Source: Psychrobacter sp. 28M-43 (lineage in GTDB: Bacteria; Pseudomonadota; Gammaproteobacteria; Pseudomonadales; Moraxellaceae). From it: 64,000 bases of DNA. The stretch covers positions 186,001-250,000 of the forward strand of contig NZ_CP061739.1 in assembly GCF_014770435.1 (NCBI RefSeq), given 5' to 3'. Positions 10,630 through 36,651 of the stretch are shown here, piece after piece. The notes beneath the pieces were generated by a model. That model did no database searches. It saw only the letters and a program-made list of their open reading frames with translations, and was not told the DNA's origin. A program made the position numbers and the translations under genes. Numbering within the stretch: the first letter of the stretch is position 1; each line of letters opens with the position of its first letter.

Positions 10630-11004
10630 TTAATCTTTTTTAAGCTTAATTACGTTGTAGCTTGGATAGCCTAGCTCGATTTTATAATTGTCGCGTCCAC
10701 GTTCAGCCTTTATCTTAATCTTACGATCACCATTTTTATATTTGACGTCTTTGACACGGTATCCCATGCTACGGACTTTACTAGCAGCTCGTTGCTCGAC
10801 AACGGAGACATAGCTGTCTTTGTCGTTCTTTTTGTCTTTGTGTTTTTTATGGCCTTTATTGTCCTTATGAGAGTGCTCGTAAAGGTCGTCATAGCCATTG
10901 TAGCCATTCGGCGCAGTCACACAGCCTGTGGTCACTGCTAATAAAGCTGCGACTGTGCTGCCAGTCGCTACCGTTTTTAATGTTGAAAATGATAGGGTTT
11001 TCAT
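10630..11004 (-). CDS. Small secreted lipoprotein with one PepSY-like repeat domain
   Basis: 124 aa. N-terminal signal with lipobox LAVTTGC, a Lys/Asp/His-rich linker, then a roughly 55-residue unit (RAASKVRSMGYRVKDVKY ... YPSYNVIKLKKD) that recurs in the neighbouring upstream lipoprotein. The unit has the helix-plus-strands look of PepSY-like domains. Function unknown. SD AGGAGA precedes the ATG. Confidence 0.75.
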   Translation of the reverse strand: MKTLSFSTLKTVATGSTVAALLAVTTGCVTAPNGYNGYDDLYEHSHKDNKGHKKHKDKKNDKDSYVSVVEQRAASKVRSMGYRVKDVKYKNGDRKIKIKAERGRDNYKIELGYPSYNVIKLKKD

Positions 11005-11088
11005 AATGATCTCCTAATAATATATCGTTGCTCAATATGGGTAAAAGTTAAACGTACCGAGCTCATTAGCTAAAAATGCTGAAAGTAA

Positions 11089-11751
11089 TCAATCTTTTTT
11101 GACTTTGAGCACATCTAAATTTGGATAACTTAATAGTATCTCGTACTTCTGTGCACCTCGTTTGGCCTCAACCTCAAAAACGCCGCGCTTGTTTTTTTCT
11201 TCAAGATCGATATCTTCGACACGGTAGCCCATAGCCCTTACTTTATTGATAGCACGACGTTTGATAACTGGGTAACGTGATTCTCTTTTAATAGTGTCTT
11301 CGACATCGCCTTTTTTATAGCGCTGACCATTTTGATAATTATCTTGATGCTTGTTTTCTTTATAGCGGCCATTATTATTTTGCGATTTATTATTATCCCA
11401 ATTATCTGGCCACGCTTTTTTGCTTGAGCTGATAAGTCTTAGTGCAGGGTAAGTATATTTTAGCTCGTAGGCTTGGTTGTTCTTTTTAGCATAAGCCGTA
11501 AGAGCTCGATCACCACGGTAACTATCAGCTCTGATATCTATAACTTGATAGCCTTTGCGGCGCAAGTCTTGTCGAAGCTGTTGACTGACGCGATTAAAAT
11601 TATTATTTTGACTATTATTGTCACCACGATAGACAGGCTGATTGTCATATCCTGAGCCTACAACTGTACAACCCACTGTCGTACCCAATAATGCAACGAC
11701 AAGGCCAGTAGACAAAGTGGCCTTAATAGAGAAGGGTTTTATTATTTTCAT
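11089..11751 (-). CDS. Secreted lipoprotein with two PepSY-like repeat domains, paralogue of the next gene
   Basis: 220 aa with lipobox LLGTTVGC and two diverged copies of the same unit: residues about 50-115 (LRRKGYQVIDIRADSY ... TYPALRLIS) and about 165-220 (VRAMGYRVEDIDLEEK ... SYPNLDVLKVKKD), separated by an Asn/Gln/Lys-rich linker. The second copy closely matches the single copy in the 124-aa lipoprotein 84 bp downstream, indicating tandem gene and domain duplication. Probably outer-membrane or periplasmic; function unknown. Confidence 0.75.
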   Translation of the reverse strand: MKIIKPFSIKATLSTGLVVALLGTTVGCTVVGSGYDNQPVYRGDNNSQNNNFNRVSQQLRQDLRRKGYQVIDIRADSYRGDRALTAYAKKNNQAYELKYTYPALRLISSSKKAWPDNWDNNKSQNNNGRYKENKHQDNYQNGQRYKKGDVEDTIKRESRYPVIKRRAINKVRAMGYRVEDIDLEEKNKRGVFEVEAKRGAQKYEILLSYPNLDVLKVKKD

Positions 11752-11991
11752 GGGGAGTATCCTATGATGGTATTAAGTAGGCGATATATGTTAGAAATAT
11801 CTATAACTGCTATAACTATAAGATTTTTAAGGTATTTTGGTGCATTAAATTAGTTCGTAGTTAATAAGTATTTCTAGTGATTTATTTTTCGAAATATTTC
11901 CTTACATTATCTATAATAGAGTACAAAACTTTGCGCTAGGTGTCATTTGCGTTAATAAGTTGTAATAATTGTGGCAAGTAAAATAGATTGT

Positions 11992-12009
11992 TGTAAGCAT
12001 ATGCTTACA
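11992..12009 (+). promoter_or_regulatory. GacA upstream activating sequence (UAS)
   Basis: TGTAAGCATATGCTTACA is a perfect 18-bp palindrome and an exact match to TGTAAG-N6-CTTACA, the GacA-binding consensus known from pseudomonad rsmX/rsmY/rsmZ promoters. It is centred about 64 bp before the predicted start of the GGA-rich RNA. Confidence 0.85.
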
Positions 12010-12029
12010 CGCAATGACGTTTACGCGAC

Positions 12030-12058
12030 TTAACATAAGAGTGAGAGTTAGGCATTAT
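12030..12058 (+). promoter_or_regulatory. Predicted sigma-70 promoter of the Rsm-like sRNA
   Basis: -35 TTAACA (12030-12035), 17-bp spacer, -10 CATTAT (12053-12058); transcription would begin near 12065. The spacing is ideal and the boxes moderate, which suits an activator-dependent promoter. Confidence 0.6.
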
Positions 12059-12064
12059 AGTCAC

Positions 12065-12345
12065 ACGGCATTAGGGAATGTGACTCAAGGATTGAGTTGA
12101 CCGCATTAAGGATAATGATTCGATAACTAGCGTCAGGATGACAATAGCGATTGAAGTAAGGACACATACCCTTTGCTGATAGCAGCAAGTAATACTGAAG
12201 CTGTAGTGTAGTAAAAAGGGCAGGATGCCCAGTATCACAATATACTGAATATTTGTGCAAGGATGCATGAAAAGCAGTCGTGATAGGTAACATGGATAGT
12301 TAACAATAAAACCGCATAACAATTAATTGCTATGCGGTTTTATCG
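12065..12345 (+). ncRNA. CsrA/RsmA-sequestering regulatory sRNA (CsrB/RsmX/Y/Z type)
   Basis: About 280 nt with no credible ORF. GGA motifs: AGGGA 12073, AAGGA 12087, AAGGA 12108, CAGGA 12134, AAGGA 12158, CAGGA 12221, AAGGA 12259, ATGGA 12292. Most sit in hairpin loops with perfect short stems: CATT-AGGG-AATG (12069-12080), ACTCAA-GGA-TTGAGT (12083-12097), CATTA-AGGA-TAATG (12104-12117), GTC-AGGAT-GAC (12132-12142), GGGC-AGGAT-GCCC (12218-12230), TGCA-AGGA-TGCA (12256-12267). The last is in a bulged stem at 12287-12304. A structural hairpin TTGCTG/CAGCAA (12173-12188) lacks GGA. Repeated loop GGAs are how CsrB/RsmZ RNAs titrate the translational repressor CsrA/RsmA. A GacA site and promoter precede it and a terminator ends it. 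The partners gacA, gacS and csrA are not in the window. Confidence 0.88.
12308..12345 (+). terminator. Terminator of the Rsm-like sRNA
   Basis: Stem AAACCGCATA (12309-12318) / TATGCGGTTT (12331-12340) with an extra inner CAAT/ATTG pairing, then TTTTA. Positioned directly after the last GGA hairpin. Confidence 0.85.
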
Positions 12346-12407
12346 TGTCTGGAGGATGGTAATTTATTTCTCCAACAGCTTATCTGTACAGTATAAATCT
12401 GCCATAA

Positions 12408-12437
12408 AAAAACCGCATATATTTCTATGCGGTTTTT
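12408..12437 (-). terminator. Terminator of the CsbD gene
   Basis: Stem AAAAACCGCATA / TATGCGGTTTTT with a 6-nt loop; on the minus strand it lies about 50 bp after the CsbD stop. Its stem repeats that of the sRNA terminator 70 bp away. Confidence 0.8.
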
Positions 12438-12488
12438 CAGTTTATTCAGTACAGTAACTATGCAGCGAATAAACATGCAACGAGTATA

Positions 12489-12692
12489 TTAATATTTGTT
12501 TTCTACACGCCAATTATCTACTTCACGCTCTGCATCTTCTTTGGCATGACCGTAACGCTCTTGCACGCGACCTACTAGCTTGTCACGGCTACCTTCGATA
12601 TGGGTAAGGTCATCATCTGTTAGCTCAGCCCATTTTTGTTTAACTGAGCCTTTCATTTGGTTCCATTCGCCTTTTAGAGTATGTTCATTCAT
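12489..12692 (-). CDS. CsbD-family stress protein (YjbJ-like)
   Basis: 67 aa. MNEHTLKGEWNQMKGSVKQ followed by AELTDDDLTHIEGSRDKLVG and GRVQERYGHAKEDAEREV is the complete CsbD signature. Members are small, soluble, abundant in stationary phase or under general stress; their biochemical role is unknown. AGGA lies upstream of the ATG. Confidence 0.92.
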   Translation of the reverse strand: MNEHTLKGEWNQMKGSVKQKWAELTDDDLTHIEGSRDKLVGRVQERYGHAKEDAEREVDNWRVENKY

Positions 12693-36260: not shown

Positions 36261-36336
36261 TGGCAGGGGTAGCTGGACTCGAACCAACGGATGTCAGGAT
36301 CAAAACCTGATGCCTTACCAACTTGGCTATACCCCT
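36261..36336 (-). tRNA. tRNA-Gln (anticodon TTG), copy 1
   Basis: 76 nt with encoded CCA. Acceptor AGGGGTA / TACCCCT, anticodon loop TTTTGAT (TTG, reading CAA/CAG), T-arm TTGGTTCGAGTCCAG. Identical to the copy at 36576. Lies just upstream of prs, the order known from pseudomonads. Confidence 0.96.
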
Positions 36337-36575: not shown

Positions 36576-36651
36576 TGGCAGGGGTAGCTGGACTCGAACC
36601 AACGGATGTCAGGATCAAAACCTGATGCCTTACCAACTTGGCTATACCCCT
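36576..36651 (-). tRNA. tRNA-Gln (anticodon TTG), copy 2
   Basis: Identical over all 76 nt to the copy at 36261, 239 bp apart, same strand. Flanking sequence differs, so only the tRNA is duplicated. Confidence 0.96.

Follow-up and report, generated by a model that had tools for sequence, protein, structure and literature searches.

A putative GacA-controlled, CsrA-sequestering small RNA gene in Psychrobacter, with candidate relatives on plasmids and in Acinetobacter

This study was concerned with a GGA-rich stretch of about 280 nt in Psychrobacter sp. 28M-43 and with the question of whether it specifies an RNA that would act on the regulator CsrA. The window refers to the whole stretch of DNA analyzed, 64,000 nucleotides of contig NZ_CP061739.1 (positions 186,001 to 250,000), and coordinates are those of the window unless a chromosome position is given. 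The CsrB and CsrC RNAs carry GGA repeats in hairpin loops (PMC7652899, in excerpt), and the enterobacterial CsrB and CsrC genes have an upstream 18-bp UvrY palindrome (PMC4682653, in excerpt). In Pseudomonas fluorescens CHA0, GacA controls three RNAs, in which multiple GGAs are unpaired and which have a palindromic upstream activating sequence (PMC2375449, in excerpt). Positions 12065-12345 very probably represent the gene for a small RNA, termed P1 in this manuscript, which would titrate CsrA under the control of GacA. The box, the promoter region, the hairpins, their covariation, the conservation of the GGAs, the distribution of the gene and the presence of csrA, gacA-like and barA-like genes were all established by computation. 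The features of the locus are given below, where percentages refer to an alignment of 41 Psychrobacter homologues and both-side changes are pairs in which both partners differ among the homologues.

11992..12009, plus strand: GacA/UvrY box TGTAAGCATATGCTTACA, a perfect match to TGTAAGN6CTTACA and an 18-bp palindrome.
12030..12058, plus strand: promoter-like TTAACA-17-CATTAT (-35/-10), from a pattern scan (9/12) and alignment conservation.
12065..12345, plus strand: P1, putative CsrA-sequestering sRNA of about 280 nt with eight GGAs, from fold, excess of loop GGAs, covariation and GGA conservation.
12078..12167, plus strand: long-range helix closing the 5' domain (12078-12082 with 12163-12167); 94.1% of cells paired, both-side changes in 3 of 5 pairs.
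12083..12097, plus strand: hairpin ACTCA-AGGAT-TGAGT; 99.0% of cells paired, GGA kept in 98%.
12104..12117, plus strand: hairpin CATTA-AGGA-TAATG; 96.6% of cells paired, both-side changes in 3 of 5 pairs, GGA kept in 95%.
12119..12155, plus strand: long hairpin with apical GTC-AGGAT-GAC; 92.9% of cells paired, both-side changes in 9 of 12 pairs, GGA kept in 100%.
12218..12230, plus strand: hairpin GGGC-AGGAT-GCCC; 99.4% of cells paired, GGA kept in 98%.
12233..12285, plus strand: long-range helix TATCAC/GTGATA around the hairpin TGCA-AGGA-TGCA (12256-12267); both-side changes in 6 of 6 outer pairs, GGA kept in 100%.
12288..12302, plus strand: hairpin TAAC-ATGGATA-GTTA; 97.0% of cells paired, GGA kept in 100%.
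12308..12341, plus strand: terminator-type hairpin with A-tract and TTTTAT; 100% of cells paired over 10 pairs.

The initial annotation had claimed eight GGAs, at least six of them in the loops of paired hairpins, and this count was confirmed. Eight GGAs were located on the plus strand, two at 12075 and 12160 and six at 12089, 12110, 12136, 12223, 12261 and 12294, and the latter six passed a strict loop test in which the loop may have at most 7 nt and the closing stem must have at least four Watson-Crick pairs. Dinucleotide shuffling of the 281 nt (5000 shuffles) gave 0.20 loop GGAs on average and at most 4, so that none (0/5000) reached six. When 281-nt frames were taken over the whole plus strand of the window in steps of 10, only seven frames contained six loop GGAs, all with starts at 12021-12081, and on the minus strand of the window no such frame contained more than two. 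The plain GGA count is mildly unusual (8, when the shuffles average 4.3 and 119 of the 5000 have at least 8). Folding of 12065-12345, which had been proposed as a check on the annotation, also favored it, with an energy of -77.5 kcal/mol (z = -3.6). Seven of the eight GGAs were mainly unpaired in the ensemble prediction, and the first (12075) was mainly paired. Several P1 sites have ARGGAU, which is near the CsrA SELEX consensus RUACARGGAUGU (PMC7652899, in excerpt).

The palindrome at 11992-12009 and the conserved promoter region that follows it were not part of the initial annotation. This box is the only perfect one in the window and one of two in the 3.1-Mb genome, and it is near invariant in the 41 homologues. 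The UvrY consensus is given as TGTAAGNNNNNNCTTACA in an excerpt of PMC4682653. The P1 box is centered about 64 bp upstream of the predicted start, whereas the palindrome of E. coli csrB is centered near -183 (PMC4682653, in excerpt). The -35/-10 pattern taken alone occurs at chance level (4 in the region versus a shuffled mean of 3.8); in the alignment of 41 sequences, CTTAACA and most of the -10 element show little or no variation. The predicted start of P1 at about 12065 is consistent with the -10-like CATTAT at 12053-12058 and with an invariant ACGG at 12065. A perfect box is present in 102 of 105 congeneric genomes, versus 3 of 105 for a reversed control pattern. Two of the three genomes lacking a perfect box have a P1 with a one-mismatch box, and the third is 89% complete.

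P1 is widespread in the genus. A 401-base P1 query was matched in 103 of 105 genomes, including all 97 with completeness of at least 90% and contamination of no more than 5%, and the two genomes without a match are 83% and 89% complete. Near-full-length homologues were found in 89 of the 105 (counted manually from the listed rows that span 330 bases or more), and in 14 the match covered short parts only. For the alignment, 82 of the 89 loci were taken, of which 80 were distinct and 41 were left at less than 92% identity. At least one of the two genes that flank P1 in the window is kept at 80 of the 82 loci by tblastn, and the CsbD-like flanking gene is kept at 73 of 82. The promoter pattern was found in at least 120 stretches of the GTDB contigs, and all 80 loci listed were from Psychrobacter.

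The alignment shows selection on both the GGAs and the stems. Among the 41 homologues, each of the eight GGAs is retained in 93-100% (mean 97%), compared with an average of 58% for other triplets; none of 20000 random triplet draws was as high. A structure of 55 pairs made by hand is paired in 97.1% of cells. Both-side changes were found in 31 of the 55 stem pairs versus 13.2 under a shuffle control that does not keep relatedness, and the covariation score was 0.245 versus 0.148 for shuffles, with 0 of 500 shuffles as high. Sliding the partners by 1-3 columns reduced the pairing to 30-45%, although this control flatters the 55-pair structure, which was itself derived from the sequence of the window. 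RNAalifold, to which this structure was not supplied, returned 76 pairs with both-side changes in 34; its total includes 7 pairs in the promoter palindrome, which are DNA and not RNA and are excluded from the count of 55. The check on compensatory conservation in relatives thus gave a favorable result, since the stems covary and the GGA loops and terminator hairpin are kept.

The claim that the RNA ends in a Rho-independent terminator was supported. The terminator-type hairpin is present in all 41 homologues, and conservation drops off within a few bases of 12350. The T-tract is short and interrupted (TTTTATC), and the P1 terminator was not listed by a simple terminator scan, for which this tract is too weak. 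Another terminator-like hairpin at 12408-12437 of the window shares its core (ACCGCAT/ATGCGGT) with that of P1 and perhaps serves the opposite-strand gene at 12489-12692.

The genome contains further genes behind the same kind of box. Four sites in the 3.1-Mb genome match the box with at most one mismatch, three of them with N6 = CATATG, at chromosome positions 197992 (P1), 392060 (P2) and 896398 (P3, one mismatch). Each of the three CATATG boxes precedes a GGA-rich stretch with a terminator hairpin. The fourth site (1417572, one mismatch, N6 TTGTGT) is inside a longer inverted repeat with few GGAs nearby by eye and was set aside. The two additional loci are as follows.

Chromosome 392060 (stretch L039 1501-1790): P2, putative GGA-rich RNA behind a TGTAAGCATATGCTTACA box, found by box search.
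Chromosome 896398 (stretch L040 1501-1760): P3, putative GGA-rich RNA behind a one-mismatch (G) box, found by box search.

In promoter spacing and in the 3' end, with the ATGGAT hairpin and the terminator, P2 is like P1, so the two look like old duplicates. P3 is shorter than P1, with about 190 nt and four GGAs. With the P2 query, 100 of 105 genomes gave a match, which in 84 extended past the promoter region (a manual count of rows of at least 180 bases), and the P3 query matches 101 of 105, several in part only. Six P2 GGAs are kept in 88-100% of 33 non-redundant P2s (from 63 loci), one GGA split by an alignment gap being counted as present in 33 of 33, and the four P3 GGAs are kept in 88-100% of 34 non-redundant P3s (from 64 loci). 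RNAalifold found both-side changes in 26 of 62 pairs for P2 and 19 of 39 for P3, with the box pairs included. The GGA permutation test gave a weak result, with 609 (P2) and 1169 (P3) of 20000 draws as high, over ranges that included a GGA past the terminator and the gap-split P2 GGA. Among the 14 genomes with short P1 matches, the main stretches of eight were examined, and in six of the eight, two or three boxes are clustered within 0.3-7 kb. The tandem RNAs predicted behind these boxes have 6-11 GGAs in the part counted, and a ninth genome has two tandem copies. A subgroup of Psychrobacter carries two or three diverged sponge-like RNAs close together, each with its own box.

The expected protein partners are encoded as well. 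Exactly one CsrA was found in each of the 105 genomes. The CsrA of this genome scores above the curated cut-offs and is identical at 52 of 60 residues, counted by hand, to PDB chain 1y00, which we take to be E. coli CsrA. Between the GacA-like regulator and E. coli UvrY the identity is 43%. The best NCBIfam model for the regulator is UvrY/SirA/GacA, where the score of 241.8 falls short of the curated cut-off of 280. Each of the 17 family genomes tested has a homologue (E up to 1e-20). The BarA-like kinase is a 1236-residue open frame that is 39% identical to BarA over BarA residues 160-518.

We infer from the Csr/Rsm literature that P1 is transcribed, that GacA binds its box and that the RNA binds and titrates CsrA. 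The BarA/GacS-type kinase would phosphorylate the GacA-like regulator, which would bind the palindrome at 11992-12009 and activate transcription of P1. The transcript, ended by its terminator, would offer GGA in six hairpin loops, together with one or two more GGAs, and CsrA dimers would bind these loops in pairs and so be drawn off their mRNA targets. P1 would be one of three genes (P1, P2 and P3) under the same kind of box in this genome. The P1-type RNAs are a candidate link from GacA to CsrA in Psychrobacter.

Other explanations for 12065-12345 were considered together. The locus could encode an Hfq-type base-pairing sRNA or some other structured RNA in which the GGA hairpins are incidental. 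P1 is intergenic, structured and terminated, as such an RNA would be, some of its conserved stretches lie outside the GGA loops, and pairing and CsrA functions are not mutually exclusive. Nevertheless, GGA triplets are kept so much better than other triplets (97% versus 58% on average), the GGA loops are fixed while the stems covary, the least conserved part of P1 (about 12178-12215) is a part without a GGA, and the GacA box also precedes two other RNAs of the same GGA anatomy, which makes incidental hairpins improbable. An mRNA leader or cis-regulatory element, as opposed to an independent RNA, has in its favor that GGA-containing mRNA sequences are also bound by CsrA (PMC7652899, in excerpt). 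Such a leader is very improbable here, since the gene that follows (12489-12692) has the opposite orientation, the terminator-type hairpin is found in all 41 homologues and conservation fades just beyond it.

A small protein gene or a chance sequence is the least probable reading, very slightly behind the leader. Two minus-strand open reading frames of 81 and 83 codons (12048-12293 and 12071-12322) could suggest a protein, but the longest stop-free stretch varies from 31 to 80 codons, with shifts of frame and strand, in every fifth value for the 41 homologues, and the base pairs covary as in an RNA. Coding in the forward or reverse frames was rejected, as no steady reading frame exists across the homologues. 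A CsrA-titrating RNA thus remains the preferred reading of P1, which has loop GGAs, an upstream palindrome, csrA and Gac homologues in the genome and a non-coding sequence with a terminator hairpin.

The relationship of P1 to the described Csr/Rsm RNAs was examined with Rfam, whose relevant families we take to be CsrB, CsrC, RsmX, RsmY and PrrB/RsmZ. The covariance search for CsrB, RsmX, RsmY and RsmZ had been proposed as a check on the annotation, and it gave no match: no Csr/Rsm family reached gathering in the window, and none was found at E up to 10 in 11900-12500. Sub-threshold matches to other families (e.g. trpB, rimP) were discarded because they were far under their gathering scores, three of the alignments being on the terminator hairpin or the opposite strand. 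For ten loci, including P2, P3 and the plasmid, tandem and Acinetobacter relatives, only tRNAs were found at gathering. As judged from sequence, P1 is Csr/Rsm-like in anatomy and wiring, without detectable sequence homology to the Rfam families. Since it would act like CsrB and RsmZ and has no Rfam match, it is placed in the Csr/Rsm functional kind but outside those families. The initial annotation had called it the Csr/Rsm regulatory RNA of this organism; anatomy, box, partners and conservation support the Csr/Rsm part, and the definite article is too restrictive, given two further genes with this kind of box and GGA anatomy.

Compared with known systems, P1 resembles CsrB and CsrC in its GGA hairpin loops and upstream 18-bp UvrY palindrome, is close to CsrC in size and differs from both in having no Rfam match. 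Psychrobacter resembles P. fluorescens CHA0, with its RsmX, RsmY and RsmZ, in having three box-linked, multi-GGA RNAs with an upstream palindrome. The pseudomonad RNAs are about 110-130 nt long, whereas P1 has about 280 nt, eight GGAs and no Rfam match. The Pf1-Pf3 RNAs of Pseudoalteromonas fuliginea, a polar gammaproteobacterium of another order, are also Csr sRNAs according to an excerpt. In the literature excerpts searched, no Csr/Rsm RNA of Psychrobacter or Acinetobacter was described, although these RNAs may have been listed earlier. CsrA-regulating RNAs were reportedly predicted by a program in a 2006 paper. A study of gacA and csrA mutants in the sister genus Acinetobacter includes such RNAs in its model and, in the excerpt seen, names none (PMC12455638).

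The P1 type was also found outside the chromosome. The 14.9-kb mobilizable plasmid pP60P2, from Psychrobacter sp. DAB_AL60, has a P1-like RNA with a perfect box at 10765-11097, and six of the seven GGAs of this RNA were predicted to be mainly unpaired. The RNA is 68.6% identical to P1 over 87% of the query and is the only P1-like record in the plasmid collection. In a tree the pP60P2 copy is placed among the P1 sequences on a long branch, with poor support (0.29) for its nearest neighbor and support of 0.95 for the group of 22 members that contains it. No viral contig contained the exact promoter pattern, and the P1 query had no phage match.

Across the family, a perfect box is present in 288 of 348 genomes, and not every box leads to an RNA. 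In a second genus (175 genomes), GGAs were counted beside 30 boxes, and nine of 12 boxes examined, which were picked mostly for many GGAs, fell into three GGA-rich RNA classes (five in class A, two in B and two in C). In the plasmid collection the class A query matched 4 records and the class B query 123, and because all of these are from Acinetobacter, the second genus is inferred to be Acinetobacter. This genus thus appears to have its own candidate sponge RNA classes, at least three in number. The class A query matches 153 of the 175 genomes, some in part only, and all 28 non-redundant sequences (of 30 fetched) retain six of nine class A GGAs within two columns, the terminator-loop GGA among them.

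The 123 class B matches each cover less than 80% of the query, and at least three are in chromosome-sized records. Seventeen class B loci were examined, 16 on plasmids and one on a chromosome-sized record, and the best box match in about 260 nt upstream was within 2 mismatches in 15, within 3 in one and absent in one. The palindromes are 61-129 nt upstream of the matched part. These copies are not independent cases, because they are related. As cut, the class B RNAs have 2-8 GGAs, of which 0-3 pass the strict hairpin test, with the RNA start being guessed. Of 14 non-redundant sequences (from 18, three of which are from chromosomes or chromosome-sized records), 13 or 14 retain each of four GGAs, including a GGA in the terminator loop. 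Compensated pairs number 7 of 28 in class B and 5 of 34 in class A. Toxin-antitoxin genes are near the class B relative in seven of the 16 plasmids.

These results slightly favor the proposal that CsrA-sponge RNAs are mobile cargo in Moraxellaceae, with a diverged P1 type on a Psychrobacter plasmid and a compact second type on Acinetobacter plasmids. Our estimate was lowered a little, from fairly likely to just above even, because by the strict test the number of loop GGAs per Acinetobacter copy is just 0-3. RsmQ is a plasmid-encoded CsrA-family protein, and its plasmid interferes with the Csr/Rsm system of the host (PMC9928087, in excerpt). What pP60P2 and the Acinetobacter plasmids carry is a sponge-like RNA and not such a protein; if the proposal is true, these plasmids would use RNA to tune the host CsrA regulon, where RsmQ plasmids use a protein. 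Since box and anatomy together picked out the Acinetobacter candidates and the plasmid relatives, a plasmid effect on the host CsrA regulon is directly testable.

Elsewhere in the window, two tRNA-Gln(TTG) genes with identical family scores are located 0.3 kb apart, at 36261-36336 and 36576-36651.
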